Below, one piece after another: positions 1 through 5,906 of a stretch of 5,906 nt of DNA. The stretch's first letter is position 1; every line of letters starts with the position of its first letter. The stretch covers positions 1-5,906 of the forward strand of contig JAUXAH010000123.1 in NCBI GenBank assembly GCA_030614945.1. Direction: 5' to 3'. This DNA comes from Phycisphaerae bacterium (GTDB lineage: Bacteria > Planctomycetota > Phycisphaerae > Sedimentisphaerales > SG8-4). The position numbers and the translations under genes are program-made. The notes under the pieces are model-generated. The model was not told the DNA's origin. It made no database searches and saw nothing but the letters and a program-made list of their open reading frames with translations.

Positions 1-233
1 AGGCGGATATGCGAAGGGCAAAGGCCGAGGCGGAAAAACGACGGGCAATGGCTGTGGCGCGCGAGCAGGAAATGCGGGCACTCGTAGTGGAAAACGAATC
101 AAAGATACCATTAGCGATGGCTGAAGCCTTCAAGAAGGGCAATCTCGGCATTATGGATTATTACAGAATGAAAAACATTATGGCTGATACCTCGATGCGG
201 GATTCCATTGCAAAGCCGAAAAAGAAAGAATAG
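1..233 (+). CDS. floA: Flotillin-like protein FloA, C-terminal fragment (5' end outside window)
   Basis: This is the tail of a flotillin-like (SPFH/UPF0365) membrane scaffold protein of the kind that organises functional membrane microdomains. The frame is open from the left edge, so the ATG at position 9 is an internal methionine and not the start. The visible part begins with a charged, alanine- and glutamate-rich coiled-coil stretch ([19 protein letters not shown]). It continues into the strongly characteristic FloA ending: [19 protein letters not shown], then [14 protein letters not shown], then a short lysine-rich tail. The stop is TAG at 231-233. The membrane anchor and SPFH domain lie outside the window. 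The next gene, on the same strand, encodes a membrane-anchored protein, so the two may act together at the membrane; that link is inference. The identification rests on memory of the FloA C-terminus and is strong. Confidence 0.9.
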
Positions 234-236
234 CAG

Positions 237-370
237 CAGGGTATCAGGAATGCAGGATATTAGGGCGTAGAATATCAGAAAATCAGGATACTAAGAAAAG
301 GCAAAATTAACCTGATATTCTGATAACCTGATACCCACTGCCTGATAATCTGGTACCCTGATAGCCTGAC
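237..370. repeat. Nested inverted repeat made of 8-base CCTGAT/ATCAGG units
   Basis: This intergenic block starts three bases after the floA stop. The right half carries CCTGAT-like units at 311, 319 (tCTGAT), 327, 341, 349 (tCTGgT), 357 and 365, so the spacing is 8 except for one 14-base step. The left half carries the complement, for example ATCAGA at 274 and ATCAGG at 282, again 8 apart. The halves can fold on each other. An outer stem pairs 237-248 with 327-340 (one bulge and one unpaired base). An inner stem pairs 273-287 with 311-325 (15 bp, one mismatch, 23-base loop). No T-run follows, so it is not a canonical terminator. It may slow transcription or protect the floA mRNA 3' end, or it may simply be a repeat expansion. 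Confidence 0.7.
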
Positions 371-390
371 ATCGATTAGCTTTACAATAT

Positions 391-1068
391 ATGAACTATT
401 CTCTGGCACAAATCATTTTAGTTGCCCAAAGACGCGACCCTGGCGGCTGGATGAACATACTGGTCCTCGTGATTGTGGCGGTTGTATATGGGCTCGTAAC
501 TATCCTCAAAGCAAAGGGGAAAAAGGAGCAAGAGCAGGCTGAGGAAGAACAGGGCCGTAAGCCACAACGTAAACCTGAGGGTGGTAGGGGGTTGCTGGAA
601 CAATTCGTCAGGGAGATTCAGCGTGCTGTCGATCCTACACAAGAGCGAGAGTCTCGCCCGGCTGGCCCGCCGGCACGCCAAAAAATCGCTCGTCCTCAGC
701 CTACTGTACGTAAATACGCCGCCCAAGCCAAACAAGCGGGCCGGCCCAAACCTATAATACCGCCGGTAAAACATAAAAGGCCTGGCTTTGAATTGTCGAT
801 ACCGGCCCCACAAGTGCAGCCCGACTTTGAAGAGCTCCCGGTACTCCAGACAGGTATCGAAGACCTTCCGGATTTCACCAGCAAAGCTGTTGAAGGATTA
901 CTCGGCAAACGTAAGGGTATGGCTGAAGTTCCTAAGTCAAAATATCTTTCCGAAGTTTTGTTGGATTACGCCGACCCCGATGAGCTGAGAATGGCGATTC
1001 TGCACTACGAAATCTTAGGCAGACCCTTATCGCTGCGTGATCCATCCGGCCAGATTATCGGACTATAA
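391..1068 (+). CDS. Hypothetical single-pass membrane protein with basic Pro-rich linker and conserved C-terminal domain
   Basis: This is a 225-residue protein of unknown function. A hydrophobic segment at about residues 21-39 (NILVLVIVAVVYGLVTIL) is followed by a Lys/Glu-rich stretch, suggesting a single membrane anchor with the bulk in the cytoplasm. Residues about 45-150 are low-complexity, very rich in Lys, Arg, Pro and Gln, and probably disordered. Residues about 185-209 form an ordered acidic helical piece (LSEVLLDYADPDELRMAIL), followed by the ending GRPLSLRDPSGQIIGL. I recall similar proteins beside floA in planctomycetes, but no named family. The start at 391 lacks a Shine-Dalgarno sequence. 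ATG 451 (Met21) would begin directly at the membrane segment and is a possible alternative. It sits 157 bases after floA, with the inverted repeat between them. A membrane-microdomain partner role is plausible but is inference. Confidence 0.75.
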   Translation: MNYSLAQIILVAQRRDPGGWMNILVLVIVAVVYGLVTILKAKGKKEQEQAEEEQGRKPQRKPEGGRGLLEQFVREIQRAVDPTQERESRPAGPPARQKIARPQPTVRKYAAQAKQAGRPKPIIPPVKHKRPGFELSIPAPQVQPDFEELPVLQTGIEDLPDFTSKAVEGLLGKRKGMAEVPKSKYLSEVLLDYADPDELRMAILHYEILGRPLSLRDPSGQIIGL

Positions 1069-1113
1069 TTATGTTATAGCTCGTTAGTATTACATCAAGC
1101 TTGAATGTTTGAT

Positions 1114-1141
1114 TTGTCATTCCTGCGAAAGCAGGAATCCA
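1114..1141. repeat. REP-like palindromic repeat, copy 1
   Basis: The core is ATTCCTGC (1119-1126), loop GAAA (1127-1130), GCAGGAAT (1131-1138): a perfect 8-bp stem closed by a GNRA-type tetraloop. All 28 bases are identical to copy 2 at 1233-1260. This core is a common type of dispersed intergenic repeat in bacteria (GTCATTCC...GGAATCC class). In RNA it would form a stable hairpin, but no T-run follows. Confidence 0.8.
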
Positions 1142-1192
1142 AGTCTTTAAGCCGCCAACTTCCTTGTCGCCATAGGGTTCCTTTTGGGTTGT

Positions 1193-1322
1193 CTTATACC
1201 AATTCTATTTATTGATTGCCGATTAACTGACCTTGTCATTCCTGCGAAAGCAGGAATCCAGGCCCTCACAGTTAGTATAATGTACAATTTTTTCAGCAAT
1301 TTTTAACTATAATTGGTATAAG
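1193..1322. mobile_element. MITE-like element, 130 bp, with 12-bp perfect terminal inverted repeats
   Basis: The ends are CTTATACCAATT (1193-1204) and its exact complement AATTGGTATAAG (1311-1322). Beyond these 12 bases similarity between the arms continues imperfectly, with both sides reading toward an ATTGC-like stretch about 15 bases further in. The interior holds a second copy of the 28-bp palindrome and no coding frame, so it is non-autonomous if mobile. A TA dinucleotide lies just inside each end, which would fit a TA target duplication of the IS630/Tc1 type if the true ends are TACCAATT...AATTGGTA; this is inference. No matching transposase is in the window. Confidence 0.55.
1233..1260. 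repeat. REP-like palindromic repeat, copy 2 (inside the MITE-like element)
   Basis: Identical over 28 bases to 1114-1141 and 119 bases downstream in the same orientation. Stem ATTCCTGC (1238-1245), GAAA loop (1246-1249), GCAGGAAT (1250-1257). It lies near the centre of the 130-bp inverted-repeat unit, so either it was carried by that unit or the unit formed around it. Confidence 0.8.
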
Positions 1323-1335
1323 CAGATATTTAGCT

Positions 1336-1352
1336 GCGCTCAGGATGACAAG
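1336..1352. repeat. Degenerate inverted third copy of the REP-like repeat (half only)
   Basis: CAGGATGACAA (1341-1351) is the complement of TTGTCATCCTG, which matches the left half of the two 28-bp repeats (TTGTCATTCCTG) with one base missing. The other half of the palindrome is not recognisable. It starts 14 bases after the right end of the MITE-like unit. It is probably a decayed member of the same repeat class. Confidence 0.45.
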
Positions 1353-1542
1353 TTTTCAGTGGTTTACTTACGGATTCCGCTCCGCCTAAAGCCGGATTCC
1401 GTCAAACAAAAGCCGGATATTCGACTTCGATTTCGCGGCAATGGCATAAAAAGTGAAAAAAGGCTGGAAAAACTGCTGCTTATCACTACAATTGCGGAAA
1501 TTAGCATATACCGTAGATACTGAATAGTGAATCGAACCACGT

Positions 1543-1605
1543 ACAATGAACAATGAACTATGAACTATGAACAACGAACTAAGAACTATGAACAACGAAC
1601 TAATT
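1543..1605. repeat. Heptamer tandem array, nine units, ending one base before a start codon
   Basis: Exact period of 7 over 63 bases. The units read ACAATGA x2, ACTATGA x2, ACAACGA, ACTAAGA, ACTATGA, ACAACGA and a final ACTAATT. One base (T1606) separates the array from the ATG at 1607, so it occupies the place where a ribosome binding site would lie, and no GGAGG-like sequence is present. Because the unit contains ATG and TGA, the array also offers several out-of-frame start/stop pairs. It resembles the short tandemly repeated repetitive sequences known from cyanobacterial genomes, though that is only an analogy. Confidence 0.85.
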
Positions 1606-1606
1606 T

Positions 1607-2077
1607 ATGAGATTTATACTTATCGATAAGATTGTTTCGCTTCAGAGCGGCAAGGAAATAAAGGCGGTCAAGAGCGTTTCTTTAGCTGAAGAGTATCTGG
1701 CGGACCATTTTCCCGCATTTCCGGTGCTGCCGGGCGTACTGCTGCTCGAAGGACTCATTGAATCGGCATCGTGGCTGGTGAGAGAGGCGGAGAATTTTGC
1801 ACACAGTATGATATTGCTTAAACAGGCGAGAAATGTAAAATATAGAAGTTTTCTGGCGCCGGGCGCACAGATAGAATATACAGTCGAGGCCAAAACAATC
1901 GAAGAAGACGTCAGCAGTTTTTCGGGCTTTGGTTTATCGCAAGGCCGGCGAATCGTGGAAGCAAGATTTGGACTAAGGCACTTTAACCTCTCTGTGCAAA
2001 ATTCGACAATGGCAGAAGTGGATGCCAAAATTATCGAGAATATGAAAAAACGATGGAAGATATTGAGTTGCGAATAA
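1607..2077 (+). CDS. FabZ-like 3-hydroxyacyl-ACP dehydratase (hot-dog fold), first copy
   Basis: A 156-residue hot-dog protein, close to the usual FabZ length. It is predicted to remove water from 3-hydroxyacyl-ACP to give the trans-2-enoyl-ACP in the cytoplasm. The active-site motif is HFPAFPVLPGVLLLE, with His34 and Glu48. The 14-residue spacing equals that of the FabZ catalytic His/Glu pair, so the enzyme should be active. FabZ works as a dimer whose active site combines residues from both chains; that is family knowledge. The start at 1607 is supported by the paralogue at 2654, which begins almost identically (MRWIWIDKF against MRFILIDKI). There is no Shine-Dalgarno sequence, and the heptamer array abuts the start. 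The tail after about residue 125 is unlike FabZ. It is the first gene of the carrier/ketosynthase set. It could instead act on a special chain, as the aryl-polyene dehydratases do. Confidence 0.85.
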   Translation: MRFILIDKIVSLQSGKEIKAVKSVSLAEEYLADHFPAFPVLPGVLLLEGLIESASWLVREAENFAHSMILLKQARNVKYRSFLAPGAQIEYTVEAKTIEEDVSSFSGFGLSQGRRIVEARFGLRHFNLSVQNSTMAEVDAKIIENMKKRWKILSCE

Positions 2078-2114
2078 ATTCCTGCTTGGTACAGTAATAG
2101 CAATGCTAACATAA

Positions 2115-2149
2115 ACGCAATACGCAATACGATATACGCAATACGAAAT
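2115..2149. repeat. Heptamer tandem array, five units, upstream of the carrier protein gene
   Basis: Period 7 over 35 bases: ACGCAAT (2115), ACGCAAT (2122), ACGATAT (2129), ACGCAAT (2136), ACGAAAT (2143). The unit differs in sequence from the array at 1543-1605 but has the same length. It ends 22 bases before the ATG at 2172 and leaves room for a proper ribosome binding site. Confidence 0.8.
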
Positions 2150-2157
2150 TTTATGCC

Positions 2158-2163
2158 GGAGGT
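2158..2163 (+). promoter_or_regulatory. Strong ribosome binding site for the acyl carrier protein gene
   Basis: GGAGGT lies nine bases upstream of ATG 2172 (counted from the end of GGAGG), with an A-rich spacer. It is the only near-consensus Shine-Dalgarno sequence before a gene of this set; the neighbours have weak or no sites. It favours the 2172 start over the in-frame ATG at 2178 and suggests the carrier protein is translated more than its partners. Confidence 0.8.
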
Positions 2164-2171
2164 AAAAAAAT

Positions 2172-2567
2172 ATGGCAATGAGTCGGGATGAAATATTCCA
2201 GGAAGTGCAGGAAGTCATGGTCGATGCGCTGGGAGTCGACGACGACGAGGTTACGGCTGAAGCGACCTTAATGGGAGACCTGGGAGCTGAAAGCATTGAT
2301 TTTTTGGACATAGTATTTCGATTGGAGAAAACGTTCGGAATAAAAATTCCACGGGAAGAGTTATTTCCGGCTGAGAGCCTGATGAATAATCCGGAATTTG
2401 TCAAAAACGGCAAATTGACCGAAACAGGGCTGAATGAATTGAGGGATAAAATACCGCATACCGACCTCACGGCATTTGAGAACGACCCTGATATCAACAA
2501 ATTGGGTAATTTGTTCACCGTCGATGCGATTGTAAATTACGTTGAGACTAAGTTGAATGTTGCTTAA
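2172..2567 (+). CDS. Acyl carrier protein with a long insertion before the last helix
   Basis: This 131-residue protein is much longer than a typical ACP (about 75-80). It would carry acyl chains as thioesters on 4'-phosphopantetheine attached to Ser41 in the motif DLGAESIDFLDI. The usual Asp before that serine is Glu here (ESID for DSLD). Residues 1-60 follow the ACP pattern through helix II and the FGIKIP segment. Residues about 65-112 form an insertion rich in Asn, Asp, Glu and Leu, and residues 115-128 (FTVDAIVNYVETKL) restore the final ACP helix. It lies between the two dehydratase genes, 94 bases after the first. The start is fixed by the GGAGGT site. The GAESID style recalls carrier proteins of planctomycete specialised lipid clusters, so this is probably a pathway-dedicated ACP. 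The role of the insertion is unknown; it may guide partner choice. Confidence 0.88.
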   Translation: MAMSRDEIFQEVQEVMVDALGVDDDEVTAEATLMGDLGAESIDFLDIVFRLEKTFGIKIPREELFPAESLMNNPEFVKNGKLTETGLNELRDKIPHTDLTAFENDPDINKLGNLFTVDAIVNYVETKLNVA

Positions 2568-2589
2568 TGTGTAAGGTGTCTTTGGGATC

Positions 2590-2626
2590 TTAGCGGCAGG
2601 ATTGCTCGAGGTCAACCTGCCGCTAA
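2590..2626 (+). other. Strong intergenic RNA hairpin between carrier protein and second dehydratase
   Basis: TTAGCGGCAGG (2590-2600) pairs perfectly with CCTGCCGCTAA (2616-2626). The stem continues after a bulged A2601 with TTG (2602-2604) pairing CAA (2613-2615), leaving an 8-base loop. It starts 22 bases after the carrier protein stop. No T-run follows, so it is not a standard intrinsic terminator. It could protect the upstream mRNA or set the ratio of carrier protein to downstream enzymes; both are inference. Confidence 0.7.
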
Positions 2627-2653
2627 CTTATATAGGCGGGGCCCTGGCGGAAA

Positions 2654-3148
2654 ATGCGATGGATATGGATAGATAAATTTGTTGAGTTTCACAGCGGCGA
2701 ATGTGCTGTGGCGCTTAAAAATGTAACGCTCGCTGAAGAGCATTTGCACGACCATTTTCCCGGCTTTCCCGTTATGCCGGAGACCTTATGCATTGAAGCA
2801 ATGGCGCAAACATCGGGGATACTCGTCGGGGAGGCAAAAAAGTTTCAGGAAAAAGTTGTTCTTGCGAAGATAAAGAAAGCCGTCTTTTTTGACTACGTAA
2901 AGCCCGGCGATACAATAAAATTAGATGCAAAAATTGAATCCATCTCACCTGAAGCGGCAAGTACGAGCGGTAAGATTACCTGCGGAGAAAAGCTGATTGC
3001 CGAGATAGATTTGATGTTCAGCCACATAGACCAGAACCTGGCAGGTAAGAAATTTCCGGAGGAGAACTTCGTGTTTACCGACACGTTCAAATCACTTCTG
3101 CGCGACGTGCTTCCGGATAGTGCCGGGCAGAAGCCGGAGCAAGACTGA
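2654..3148 (+). CDS. FabZ-like 3-hydroxyacyl-ACP dehydratase (hot-dog fold), second copy
   Basis: A 164-residue paralogue of the protein at 1607, predicted to dehydrate 3-hydroxyacyl-ACP. The motif HFPGFPVMPETLCIEAMAQ contains His34 and Glu48, numbered identically to the first copy and correctly spaced for FabZ catalysis. The usual PG after the motif is PE (Pro42-Glu43), a local change close to the active site. The segment EAMAQTSGILV is closer to standard FabZ than the first copy's EGLIESASWLV, so this may be the more conventional of the two. The last 30 residues or so are a charged extension. No clear Shine-Dalgarno sequence precedes ATG 2654. Its TGA stop (3146-3148) overlaps the next gene's ATG (3148-3150) by one base, indicating translational coupling with the degenerate ketosynthase. 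Two dehydratases in one set suggest different chain lengths or a heteromeric enzyme; neither is shown. Confidence 0.87.
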   Translation: MRWIWIDKFVEFHSGECAVALKNVTLAEEHLHDHFPGFPVMPETLCIEAMAQTSGILVGEAKKFQEKVVLAKIKKAVFFDYVKPGDTIKLDAKIESISPEAASTSGKITCGEKLIAEIDLMFSHIDQNLAGKKFPEENFVFTDTFKSLLRDVLPDSAGQKPEQD

Positions 3149-4476
3149 TGGGTTCGGCCCGTGTAGTAATAACCGGCCTTGGTGCGATAAGCCCACTCGG
3201 ATTAACCGTCGGCGATATGTGGAGCGGTCTTTGCGCCGGCAGATGTGGGATAGGGCAAATTGACGCATTTGACCCTGTGGGCTTTAGCTGCAAATTAGCC
3301 GGTCAGGTCCCGGATTTTAAAATACAACAATATGTGCCAAAGACCTATCGCAAAGCCATTAAACTGATGTCGAGGGACATCCACCTGGCGGTTATAGCGG
3401 CAAACGAAGCGCTTACAAGCAGCGGCCTCGTTACAAAAGGCCTCGACACGGAAAAAGTCAATGTTGACCCGGCACGCATGGCAATCAATCTGGGGGCAGG
3501 CCTTATAAGTTGTGATTTGGTTGAGCTGGCTCCGGCGGTGGCAGCAAGCACTACCGATGGTAAGTTTGACATTATTAAATGGGGGAAGGATGGTCTTGAG
3601 CTGGTAACACCTTTATGGCTGCTGAAATATCTGCCCAATATGCTCGCCTGCCATATAGGTATTATTCACGACATACAGGGGCCGAGCAACACCATCACAT
3701 GTGCTGAAGCGGCTGCGCATCTGGCGATAGGTGAAGCAACGCAGATTATCGCCCGCCGTGACAGTGACATCGCCCTGGCAGGCGGGGCTGAAGCAAAGGT
3801 CAATCCGATAGTTATGATTCGCCAGTGCCTGCTTAAAAGGACTACCAGCAAAAACAACAGCAGCCCTGCCACGGCCTGCAGGCCTTTCGACGCCGACGCC
3901 AAGGGCTCGGTTTTCGGGGAAGGGGCCGGGATGGTTGTACTGGAAAACGCGGAAAGGGCTGAAAGGCGGGGTGCAAAAATTTATGCCGAAGTAGTCGGGG
4001 TCGGACACAGCAATAATATCAACCCGGCGTATGAGTGTCTTGAGCCCGACGGCTATGGGTTACAAATAGCAATAGAAAAAGCAATGGCGGATGCACGGAT
4101 TCAGCCGGAGGCTCTGGACCTGATTATTCCGCACGGAACGGGGATAGCCGCCGATGACCTCGCTGAAGCAAAAGCAATCGAGGCGGCCCTTGGCAAAGCA
4201 GCAACAAAGCCGGCAGTCTGGCCGACAAAAAGTATGCTCAGTAACACAGGTGCCGCAGGCGGTGCTATTGACGTTGTCGCTGCGGTTTGTGCAATGACCG
4301 AGAGTAAGATACCGGCTGCGAAAAATTGCGACAGAAAGCCCGATGGCTGCAACTTGAATATTGTAAAAGAGCCAGAGCAGAAAAAAATCCGCTATGTACT
4401 CTGCTGCAGTTATACATACGGCGGACAAACAGCGGCGCTTGTGCTAAAAAACTTTGACGGCGAAATGGTGAGCTAA
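3148..4476 (+). CDS. Ketosynthase-like protein lacking catalytic Cys (chain-length-factor-type)
   Basis: A 442-residue thiolase-fold protein of the FabF/KAS II family, starting with RVVITGLGAISPLG. The nucleophile region GPSNTITCAEAAAHLAIG aligns without gaps to the 18-residue FabF segment from GPS to IG. The position of the catalytic Cys is Glu187; Cys185 is two residues too early. The first His is kept (His329 in PHGTG), as is Lys361 (TKSM), but the second His position, five after the Lys, is Asn366. The C-terminal GFGG gatekeeper loop reads TYGG (423-426). It therefore cannot condense in the normal way. In type II polyketide and aryl-polyene systems such partners pair with an active ketosynthase and shape chain length, so this is probably the partner of the enzyme at 4595. 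GGAG at 3136-3139 and the one-base overlap with the preceding gene support the start. An independent decarboxylase or scaffold role is also possible. Confidence 0.85.
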   Translation: MGSARVVITGLGAISPLGLTVGDMWSGLCAGRCGIGQIDAFDPVGFSCKLAGQVPDFKIQQYVPKTYRKAIKLMSRDIHLAVIAANEALTSSGLVTKGLDTEKVNVDPARMAINLGAGLISCDLVELAPAVAASTTDGKFDIIKWGKDGLELVTPLWLLKYLPNMLACHIGIIHDIQGPSNTITCAEAAAHLAIGEATQIIARRDSDIALAGGAEAKVNPIVMIRQCLLKRTTSKNNSSPATACRPFDADAKGSVFGEGAGMVVLENAERAERRGAKIYAEVVGVGHSNNINPAYECLEPDGYGLQIAIEKAMADARIQPEALDLIIPHGTGIAADDLAEAKAIEAALGKAATKPAVWPTKSMLSNTGAAGGAIDVVAAVCAMTESKIPAAKNCDRKPDGCNLNIVKEPEQKKIRYVLCCSYTYGGQTAALVLKNFDGEMVS

Positions 4477-4486
4477 ATGTAAATTA

Positions 4487-4587
4487 GACGCAGATTATGC
4501 TGATTAACCCAGCCCCTCGGAGAGGCGGGGTTAACGCAGATTGGTTAATTAAAAAACATTTTCAGCGAAATCTGCGAAATCAGCGTC
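4487..4587. repeat. Palindromic intergenic repeat between the two ketosynthase genes
   Basis: The outer arms 4487-4505 (GACGCAGATTATGCTGATT) and 4569-4587 are complementary at 15 of 19 positions. A GC-rich inner hairpin lies at 4504-4534, with TTAACCC pairing GGGTTAA and further pairs inside. Extra CGCAGATT-like words occur at 4535-4542. The block nearly fills the 118-base gap and ends 7 bases before the ATG at 4595. No T-run follows the inner hairpin, so it is not a clear terminator. It looks like a dispersed repeat inserted into the operon, and it may uncouple expression of the two ketosynthases. Confidence 0.65.
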
Positions 4588-4594
4588 AAAAACA

Positions 4595-5906
4595 ATGGTT
4601 GAGAAAGAGACAACCGAACGAGTAGTAATAACCGGAATGGGCATTGTCTGTCCTCTGGGTCACGATGTAGAGACCGTCTGGCAGGCAATGGTAGCGGGTA
4701 AGAGCGGAATGGCCAAAACCACCATTTTCGACGCTTCGACGTTTCCATCGACTTTCAGTGCTGAAGTTAAAGATTACGACTTTGCAAAATACACAAAGAA
4801 TCCACAGCTGCACAAACACGGCAATCGAGGCTCCGGGTTTGCTATCGGCGCAGCGGTTCAGGCCTGCAAACAGGCGGGGATTGATATCGAAACCGACAAG
4901 CCGACTGACGGGATAGACCGCAGCAGATTAGGGATTTACCTGGGAGCAGGCGAAGGCTCCGTTGACAATGACGTATTCTTCGGCGCTATCGTGGAAGCGT
5001 GGGACACAGACAAAAGCGAAATGGACTGGGGACGATGGACAGAGGTGGCTCTCAGCAGGATGAGACCAATGCGTGAGCTTGAGCAGGAGCCGAATATGCC
5101 GGCTGCTCATATCGCAATGCTCACTGGCGCACGCGGGCCGACAAGAAGCTGTCTTACCGCCTGTGCAGCGAGTACTCAAGCCGTCGGCGAAGCAATGATG
5201 ATAATCCGAAGGGGCAACGCGGACATAATGATTGCAGGCGGTGCCCATTCGATGATACACCCCTTGGGTCTTACGGGCTTTAACCGTCTTACCGCCCTAT
5301 CGACAAGAAACGACAGTCCAGAGACAGCATCAAGGCCCTTCTCAGCCGGCAGGGATGGTTTCATCCTCGGTGAAGGGGCAGCGATGTTAATTCTCGAATC
5401 GCAGAATTCAGCCAAAAAGAGGGACGCCGAAATCTTGGCCGAACTCATCGGCTACGGCAGCAGCTCCGATGCATTCAGAGTTACTGATATGCACGAGCAA
5501 GGCAGAGGTGCAATACAAGCGATTACTGCGGCACTTGCCGATGCCGGCATTAGCAAAAGGCAAGTCGATTACATAAACACGCACGGCACCAGCACAATCG
5601 AGAACGACTCGATAGAGACCAAAGCCATCAAGGCGGTTTTCAAAGAAGAGGCGAAAAATATTCCTGCCAGCAGTGTCAAGAGTATGTTTGGACATTTAAT
5701 TGGGGCGGCCGGGGCCGCGGAATTGATTACCTGTGTTCTGGCAATACGTGATAATATAGTCCCGCCGACAATGAACCTGAACGACCCTGACCCCGAGCTT
5801 GACCTGGATTACGTACCTAATGAGCCGAGAAAAATGCCGGTCAATGTCGCAATGAACGAGTCCTTCGGTTTCGGCGGACAAAACAATGTCGTAATCATTA
5901 AAAGAT
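4595..5906 (+). CDS. 3-oxoacyl-ACP synthase (FabF-type ketosynthase), 3' end just outside window
   Basis: An active-looking KAS II-type condensing enzyme, predicted to extend an ACP-bound chain by decarboxylative Claisen condensation with malonyl-ACP. Translating from ATG 4595 gives 437 residues without a stop before the right edge. The sequence has reached the family's usual ending (SFGFGGQNN followed by VVIIKR), so only a few codons are missing. The catalytic triad is complete: Cys190 in SCLTACAAS, His330 in NTHGTST and His367 in VKSMFGHLIGAAG, with Lys362. The Cys-to-His spacing of 140 equals that of E. coli FabF. The catalytic Cys sits about 27 residues later than in E. coli FabF, consistent with extra sequence before it around residues 125-165. 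No Shine-Dalgarno sequence precedes the start and the palindromic repeat lies just upstream, so the start is slightly uncertain. It probably partners the degenerate ketosynthase at 3148. Confidence 0.9.
   Translation, partial: MVEKETTERVVITGMGIVCPLGHDVETVWQAMVAGKSGMAKTTIFDASTFPSTFSAEVKDYDFAKYTKNPQLHKHGNRGSGFAIGAAVQACKQAGIDIETDKPTDGIDRSRLGIYLGAGEGSVDNDVFFGAIVEAWDTDKSEMDWGRWTEVALSRMRPMRELEQEPNMPAAHIAMLTGARGPTRSCLTACAASTQAVGEAMMIIRRGNADIMIAGGAHSMIHPLGLTGFNRLTALSTRNDSPETASRPFSAGRDGFILGEGAAMLILESQNSAKKRDAEILAELIGYGSSSDAFRVTDMHEQGRGAIQAITAALADAGISKRQVDYINTHGTSTIENDSIETKAIKAVFKEEAKNIPASSVKSMFGHLIGAAGAAELITCVLAIRDNIVPPTMNLNDPDPELDLDYVPNEPRKMPVNVAMNESFGFGGQNNVVIIKR

Follow-up and report, generated by a model that had tools for sequence, protein, structure and literature searches.

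A ketosynthase homologue that carries glutamate in place of the catalytic cysteine, encoded directly upstream of a ketosynthase with an intact active site, raises the question of what the first protein contributes to the second. This arrangement is found in a 5,906-nucleotide stretch from a Phycisphaerae bacterium of the Planctomycetota (Sedimentisphaerales; GenBank assembly GCA_030614945.1, contig JAUXAH010000123.1, positions 1 to 5,906 of the forward strand), the whole of which we call the window. We refer to the Cys-less protein as KSE and to its Cys-bearing neighbor as KSC. On balance, and with considerable room for doubt, we think it probable that KSE is a noncatalytic subunit, akin to a chain length factor (CLF), of an obligate KSE-KSC heterodimer in which KSC would be the catalytic member and which would make long 3-hydroxyacyl chains, likely for lipid A. 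We hold the role of KSE as a noncatalytic chain-length subunit with higher confidence than the lipid A product, for which our confidence is moderate.

The KSE gene and the residues on which the argument turns are as follows.

Positions 3148..4476, forward strand: KSE, a Cys-less ketosynthase homologue of 442 amino acids (aa) running from ATG to TAA, predicted to be a noncatalytic subunit (Pfam, FabF alignments, and AlphaFold2 model).
Positions 3616..3618, forward strand: Trp157 (FabF position 133), singled out by its conservation and presumably part of the lining of the partner's acyl pocket.
From position 3700, forward strand: Cys185, codon TGT (KSE translation).
Positions 3706..3708, forward strand: Glu187, codon GAA, at the nucleophile position (HMMER alignment to FabF).
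Positions 4132..4134, forward strand: His329, codon CAC, the first catalytic His, retained (alignment).
Positions 4228..4230, forward strand: Lys361, codon AAA, the catalytic Lys, retained (alignment).
Positions 4243..4245, forward strand: Asn366, codon AAC, in place of the second catalytic His (alignment).
From position 4417, forward strand: Tyr424, codon TAC (KSE translation).

A reading of the stretch made without database searches (hereafter, the sequence-only reading) had placed Glu187 at the nucleophile position and Asn366 at that of the second His, with the first His and the Lys retained and a TYGG loop in place of GFGG. HMMER alignments of KSE with FabF chains, ungapped from the GPS motif through the nucleophile elbow, pair Glu187 with FabF Cys163 and with the Gln of a FabF C163Q mutant chain (9lpl); together with a check of the codons they uphold both substitutions, and His329, Lys361, and the TYGG loop are present as described. 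Cys185, the residue that might have displaced Glu187 as the elbow nucleophile, was considered and rejected, as it is Glu187 that aligns to FabF Cys163. In the AlphaFold2 model of KSE (pLDDT 94.5), residues 180-183 form a strand and a helix begins at 186. Judged by this secondary structure together with the alignment, Glu187 is predicted to sit at the helix start, as the FabF nucleophile does, with Cys185 preceding the helix. The top Foldseek match of the model is the C163Q variant of FabF. The rest of the protein is intact, as the sequence-only reading had held: KSE has a whole-length thiolase-type KAS II fold, its Pfam matches (ketoacyl-synt, 131.5 bits; Ketoacyl-synt_C, 69.7 bits) both exceed the cut-off, and comparison with the nearest relative points to purifying selection on the frame (ratio of nonsynonymous to synonymous substitution, 0.15 by NG86 and 0.23 by YN00). 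The Cys-His-His triad of FabF/KAS II is lacking (Glu187, His329, Asn366), and KSE scores 319 bits against the TIGR03150 cut-off of 493.75.

The change at Glu187 is not a local mutation, because the position is occupied by Glu or Asp in 80 of the 81 places examined in 80 named genome loci (Glu 70, Asp 10, gap 1); no same-order orthologue read has Cys. Glu is found in 30/30 same-order loci and in all 120 of the nearest database proteins. The relatives scan comprised the best 80 of 565, and one protein listing comprised 120 of 7675; tblastn matches spanning fewer than 250 or 300 query residues and named-locus matches shorter than 300 bases were discarded. A wider set of 58 KSE rows has Glu in 48, Asp in 8, and Gln and Asn in 1 each. 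Among the best matches of 30 genomes of the Planctomycetia, a class label inferred from Rhodopirellula-like residues and names such as Planctomycetaceae, the counts are Glu 18, Asp 9, and Ser 3, and 20 further Planctomycetia places gave 16 Glu, 3 Asp, and 1 Cys, the last being an ordinary ketosynthase. Asn366 is less constant, with Asn in 28 and Thr in 2 of the 30 same-order relatives, Asn in 31 and His in 7 of the 58 wider rows, and Asn in 54 of the 81 named-locus places. Thus, of the two residues whose conservation in planctomycetes had been put forward as a check, Glu187 is conserved as an acid, and Asn366 is conserved only in part.

Several variants at this site deserve separate mention. 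In three Planctomycetia genomes (L278, L282, and L285; f57, g159), Ser occupies the nucleophile position and Asp the one just before it. Amides occur as Asn in the deep KSE family f34 (L242, from 4449) and as Gln in f10 (L089, from 7671). A record titled Candidatus Kuenenia stuttgartiensis (metagenome-assembled genome MiH-14oct19-120; L167, CAMDDF010000019.1) encodes at 8001-9314 a KSE 60% identical to that of the window; it is unlike the published Kuenenia paralogues, which have Val, Phe, or Ser at the site, and the Kuenenia label looks doubtful.

The fate of the other catalytic residues bears on whether KSE has any chemistry of its own. In the 58 KSE rows, His329 is His in 32 and Lys361 is Lys in 35. 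Families f8-f12, which belong to the same class, have lost His329 in 23 of 28 rows and Lys361 in 20 of 28 (counts made by eye from aligned rows), and the remaining 30 rows have lost each in 3. Despite these losses, the site in f8-f12 is still Glu in 27 rows and Gln in 1. As the aligned rows stand, the elbow acid thus appears to outlast the catalytic set where that set decays, yet most lineages retain the His and Lys. KSQ decarboxylases are known, and KSE might analogously be a malonyl-acyl carrier protein (ACP) decarboxylase supplying an acetyl primer to KSC, with Glu acting as Gln. His329 and Lys361 are kept in the window protein and in most KSEs outside f8-f12, the second position is Asn or His, and the best structural match is the Cys-to-Gln variant of FabF, all of which would suit such an enzyme. 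We nevertheless consider it improbable. A KSQ-type decarboxylase has Gln and both catalytic His residues, whereas the window protein has Glu187 and Asn366, the latter shared with its close kin, and decarboxylase chemistry is disfavored because most f8-f12 members dispense with His and Lys yet keep an acid or an amide at the site. The same Glu also occurs in rhizobial FabF2XL (see below), where the first His and the Lys are missing in 5/5 rows (the second His being kept in four). Among the roles offered by the sequence-only reading, therefore, dimer scaffold or chain-length gauge fits best, and malonyl-ACP decarboxylation is weakened.

Does the acidic residue mark a lineage, as that reading suggested it could? 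The main tree contained 79 rows, with planctomycete sequences drawn from 32 of the 80 loci and rows of at least 350 aa; the FabF2XL of locus L232, 99% identical to that of Sinorhizobium meliloti, was left out. All Cys-less planctomycete proteins tested form one clade, that of KSE (support, 100/99), and KSC forms another (91/95), which supports the reading of Glu as the mark of a separate lineage. A quick tree, which added 12 of the 50 further Planctomycetia places read, puts 11 further Planctomycetia KSEs, of both types, in the KSE clade (37 rows; support, 99). In one lineage, f22 (loci L062, L063, L095, and L100), two ketosynthases encoded side by side both carry Cys. Its first protein is sister to KSE (97/95; 80 with more rows), and its second is sister to KSC (97/77). 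A private duplication within the lineage as the source of this two-Cys pair was rejected (approximately unbiased [AU] test, p 0.001), but placement of the first protein on the KSC side was not rejected (p 0.0758). All 120 database proteins nearest the first f22 ketosynthase have Cys-His-Lys-His; some of those nearest f22 are named Planctomycetota, one Planctomycetaceae, and one Gemmataceae. In L095, the two-Cys pair lies downstream of a FabZ-like gene and an ACP gene. The planctomycete rows need only one change between Cys and non-Cys, which we read as a loss, given the Cys present in FabF, KSalpha, and FabF1XL. We accordingly read the f22 sister, the sole Cys-bearing near relative among the aligned sequences, as probably representing the older state.

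The genomic setting of KSE points to KSC as its partner. The remaining features of the putative operon are listed here.

Positions 1607..2077, forward strand: FabZ-like dehydratase 1 of the hot-dog type, 156 aa (58.8 bits with Pfam FabA; 82.3 bits with NCBIfam FabZ, short of the cut-off of 113).
Positions 2172..2567, forward strand: ACP of 131 aa whose C-terminal part is extended (46.0 bits with Pfam PP-binding; 71.4 bits with the NCBIfam ACP subfamily model, exceeding its cut-off of 66).
Positions 2654..3148, forward strand: FabZ-like dehydratase 2, 164 aa (54.7 bits with Pfam FabA; 92.0 bits with NCBIfam FabZ, short of the cut-off of 113).
Positions 4595..5905, forward strand: KSC, a ketosynthase with intact Cys190-His-Lys-His and GFGG, predicted to be the catalytic partner and continuing beyond the window end.
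Positions 5066..5095, forward strand: the KSC segment PMRELEQEPN, in which the Glu residues at FabF positions 134, 136, and 138 are conserved (alignment).

KSC is next downstream on the same strand, within 1.5 kb of KSE, in 76 of 77 named-locus places (4 of the 81 with less than 900 bases downstream being excluded), and Cys occupies its active site in 66/66 rows. Of 294 genomes sampled from the phylum, 106 contain KSC (E <= 1e-120), and 75 matched the KSE query at E <= 1e-80, some of the latter matches being KSC or the two-Cys pair. A Cys-less KSE was present in each of 32 Planctomycetia genomes read, of which 29 had been picked as KSC positive without an earlier KSE match and 3 were known positives. 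The order FabZ-ACP-FabZ-KSE-KSC recurs in same-order relatives, in several of which the seryl-tRNA synthetase gene, whose cluster occurs in 12 of 60 loci, comes next after the operon. We conclude that the product of the gene at 4595 is the likely partner of KSE.

Some details of these genes may be noted. The FabZ catalytic pair, we assume, corresponds to His34 and Glu48 in dehydratase 1. The candidate phosphopantetheine Ser of the ACP lies within GAESIDFLD, and the protein falls below the cut-off of PRK06508 (49.9 against 83 bits), which we take to be the AcpXL model. The final base of the dehydratase 2 gene (position 3148) is shared with the KSE start codon. The gap between the KSE and KSC genes (4477-4594) holds a GC-rich inverted repeat (AACCCAGCCCC...GGGGTT) that may be an attenuator or else a dispersed repeat. 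Farther upstream, a 225-aa open reading frame (ORF) at 391-1068, downstream of floA, has an N-terminal hydrophobic stretch and no Pfam or NCBIfam match. No aromatic polyketide tailoring genes are found in the window, among 5 annotated neighbors in the nearest relative (L061), or among 10 further annotated ORFs (nine of them neighbors elsewhere); cyclase, aromatase, and oxygenase genes are likewise absent from the window, as are radical SAM and desaturase genes in Pfam and NCBIfam scans of it.

The expected interface of the two proteins is described here in FabF numbering. Positions 133 and 138 of one FabF subunit, as we understand the structure, line the acyl pocket of the other, and we take the KSC segment PMRELEQEPN to be the site of FabF's partner-facing hydrophobic segment. 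Trp133 of KSE is present in 58/58 rows, in 4/4 first proteins of f22, and in 30/30 best matches of the Planctomycetia; position 193 of KSE is basic (Lys or Arg) in 51 of 58 rows, and Arg201 is present in 57 of 58. Over 66 rows, KSC has Glu at positions 134 (66/66), 136 (62/66), 138 (64/66), and 108 (66/66). The pattern would fit a dimer in which a hydrophobic wall of KSE lies in the KSC pocket and KSC acids meet KSE basic residues. We propose that a hydrophobic KSE helix with the near-invariant Trp would enter the KSC acyl pocket and set its shape and length, that the acidic KSC segment would fill the dead KSE pocket against the conserved Lys/Arg and so hinder KSC homodimers, and that Glu187 would pack in the closed KSE site. 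A quite different arrangement, in which KSE would form homodimers by itself, without KSC, and serve as a structural or regulatory pseudoenzyme such as an acyl-ACP sensor, could draw on the several Planctomycetia in which KSE is distant from KSC and has paralogues. The adjacency in 76/77 places, the co-occurrence in 32/32 Planctomycetia genomes, and the complementary conserved charges at the expected interface all run counter to it, and we rate it as slightly more improbable than the decarboxylase. As an aside, chains B and C of PDB entry 9s5h are two different ketosynthase chains, perhaps another heterodimer.

The sequence-only reading compared the protein with polyketide CLFs; the closest functional parallel is instead rhizobial FabF2XL, which likewise has Glu. 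The Cys position is Glu in 5/5 FabF2XL rows (five records, two near-identical, from S. meliloti, Bradyrhizobium, Methylobacterium, Shinella, and Sinorhizobium sp. M103) and Cys in all 4 FabF1XL rows read. The S. meliloti order is ACP, FabZ, FabF2XL, FabF1XL, dehydrogenase, and lipid A acyltransferase, and ACP and FabZ lie upstream of the pair in four of the five records (S. meliloti, Methylobacterium, Shinella, and M103). As with KSE, therefore, the Glu-bearing protein is directly followed by a Cys-bearing ketosynthase and preceded by ACP and FabZ-like genes. The window differs in that neither lpxXL nor adh is present, the FabZ-like genes number two, and the ACP is longer. The lpxXL acyltransferase is not seen in the window, which ends within KSC, and in the nearest relative the ORFs flanking the operon include no lipid A family. 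The window KSE retains the first His and the Lys, both of which are missing from all 5 FabF2XL rows, four of these keeping the second His. In Sinorhizobium sp. M103 (L232, about 4651-5933), unlike in S. meliloti, FabF1XL is in two pieces in different frames, a sequence error or true damage.

Whether KSE and FabF2XL are true orthologues, representing one ancient acidic-partner heterodimer inherited by or transferred between Planctomycetota and Alphaproteobacteria, is a question on which the evidence divides. The gene order (in four of five records) and the Glu are alike; over a shared block, FabF2XL has its highest mean identity with KSE (0.319, against 0.300 for the f22 sister, 0.300 for CLF, 0.241 for KSC, and 0.246 for FabF/B); FabF1XL groups with KSE and KSC (93/94); and AU tests of a single KSE-FabF2XL clade are borderline (p 0.0498 and 0.058). 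The best tree, however, joins FabF2XL with CLF (93/91) on a branch of 2.5 changes per column, apart from KSE, which is nested with its Cys-bearing sister (97/95). KSE is not a FabF2XL equivalog, scoring 72.3 bits on that model (NF005084/PRK06519) against a cut-off of 320 (Sinorhizobium FabF2XL, 616). Orthology thus seems unlikely to us. Tentatively, and short of an even chance, we suggest that Planctomycetota evolved a heterodimer of their own: an active ketosynthase would have been duplicated, with Cys at first kept in both copies, after which one copy would have exchanged it for Glu/Asp and turned into a noncatalytic but essential subunit governing chain length for lipid A, the acidic solution having arisen separately in rhizobia. 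KSE and FabF2XL would then exemplify an unrecognized class of membrane-lipid, nonpolyketide "chain length factors."

FabF1XL and FabF2XL are both termed 3-oxoacyl-ACP synthase II (PMC11901934), and no mention of the active site, a cysteine, or a heterodimer turned up in the accessible portions of that paper. The acpXL, fabZXL, fabF1XL, and fabF2XL genes of Bradyrhizobium ORS278 are described as ones that could not be mutated (PMC5613085). Our literature search returned no paper joining fabF2XL with CLF. The FabF2XL(Glu)-FabF1XL(Cys) pair, thought to make the very-long-chain acid of rhizobial lipid A, would be our model for the planctomycete system: KSE-KSC, with the operon ACP and two FabZ-like dehydratases, would make long 3-hydroxyacyl chains, most likely for lipid A, and ketoreductase would be supplied from elsewhere in the cell or by short-chain dehydrogenase/reductase genes present in some relatives.

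That the product is destined for lipid A is consistent with the physiology. A 1988 report by Kerger is said, by its title, to concern long-chain beta-hydroxy acids in the lipid A of Pirellula/Planctomyces. Among genomes picked because they carry KSE or the two-cysteine pair, LpxC is encoded in 30/30 and a lipid A acyltransferase in 29/30. All five members of one ketosynthase paralogue group in Planctopirus limnophila are essential, as are nearly all of its lpxABCDKL genes (PMC10632474). In genome G171 (L306, 6672-7943 and 12700-13572), about 5 kb separate lpxC and an OmpH gene from a further KSE paralogue on the opposite strand, which is of the Asp type and lacks the Trp; this single case may be chance. 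A sizeable possibility, which we put a little below our evolutionary scenario, is that the pair makes some other lipid, such as a ladderane-like, polyene, or very long membrane fatty acid. Noncanonical and canonical FabF pairs do occur in the Kuenenia clusters proposed for ladderanes, and the window operon has no lpx gene. The window also has no radical SAM or desaturase genes, though, the odd FabFs of Kuenenia have Val, Phe, or Ser, and wide conservation would better suit a core envelope lipid than a speciality one.

A number of observations weigh against the noncatalytic heterodimer for lipid A. The named loci retain His329 in 61 and Lys361 in 76 of 81 places, and the Planctomycetia best matches retain His in 24 and Lys in 28 of 30; outside f8-f12, such retention seems to exceed the need of a purely structural role. 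In Planctomycetia, KSE is often unlinked from KSC, and two or more KSE paralogues occur, which speaks against a one-to-one pairing in those genomes. Nor is the complete operon general, as FabZ-like ORFs occur in only 23 and the ACP cluster in only 12 of 60 clustered loci (by crude ORF calling). Trp133 is absent in 2 of 19 further Planctomycetia KSEs (present in 17/19). Glu108 of KSC falls at a gating position, suggesting that its pocket is not the plain hydrophobic pocket of FabF, which is gated by Ile108, Phe202, and Phe400 (PMC7138838; PMC5206705); the general make-up of the FabF dimer interface is also described in the latter. The Bradyrhizobium plasmid pair is preceded by a methyltransferase gene rather than by ACP and FabZ, and the resemblance of FabF2XL to KSE may be convergence. 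Finally, no lpx gene lies in the window, and the presence of LpxC and the acyltransferase permits a lipid A role but does not discriminate.

Dead-subunit ketosynthase heterodimers are known mainly from specialized metabolism. If our reading is correct, one operates in the core envelope machinery across a large part of a phylum. The living two-Cys relative would make the birth of a CLF testable stepwise. The pair is a candidate source of the long 3-hydroxy acids once reported from planctomycete lipid A and could account for the individual essentiality of several ketosynthase paralogues in P. limnophila. It also suggests that rhizobial FabF2XL is not the synthase that its annotation names. Among the matches listed in our literature searches, in which subscription journals are thinly covered, no paper described the KSE-KSC pair, its conservation, the two-cysteine relative, or the rhizobial parallel.

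The residue change itself is already in print, a precedent that the sequence-only reading missed. Among the FabF paralogues of Rhodopirellula baltica, the consulted passages of Rattray 2009 (PMC2649909) give Glu-His-Lys-Asn, with Pro in the loop, for RB4527 and Asp-His-Ile-His for RB3714, and remark on a likely different function; they contain no dimer proposal. RB4527 equals the window KSE at all four sites, and its Leu after HG and loop Pro are those of the VTPQGQ-type KSE of Planctomycetia; RB3714 has Ile at the Lys site, unlike most Asp-type KSEs. Judging only from residue pattern and taxon, both would belong to the KSE clade. The noncanonical FabF/FabB proteins of Kuenenia (kuste3606, 2805, and 3348) resemble KSE as divergent paralogues encoded alongside canonical ones in fatty acid clusters, but they have Val, Phe, or Ser and no acid at the site, with radical SAM genes around (PMC2649909 and PMC4790861). 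FabF (KAS II) has the catalytic Cys and the second His, both of which KSE lacks. Planctomycetes are among 14 phyla with KS-CLF pairs (PMC10132072). The CLF (KSbeta) of type II polyketide systems is, like KSE, Cys-less, next to a Cys-bearing ketosynthase (KSC at 4595 in the window), and near an ACP (at 2172), with Lys kept. In the same alignment, however, CLF has Gln in 3/3 Streptomyces rows, where KSE has Glu/Asp. CLF also stands apart from KSE in the tree, where KSE is sister to a Cys-bearing ketosynthase, but a union of CLF and KSE is not rejected (one-clade test, p 0.0586). KSE would thus work like a CLF, yet appears to derive from an active ketosynthase within or near the Planctomycetota.

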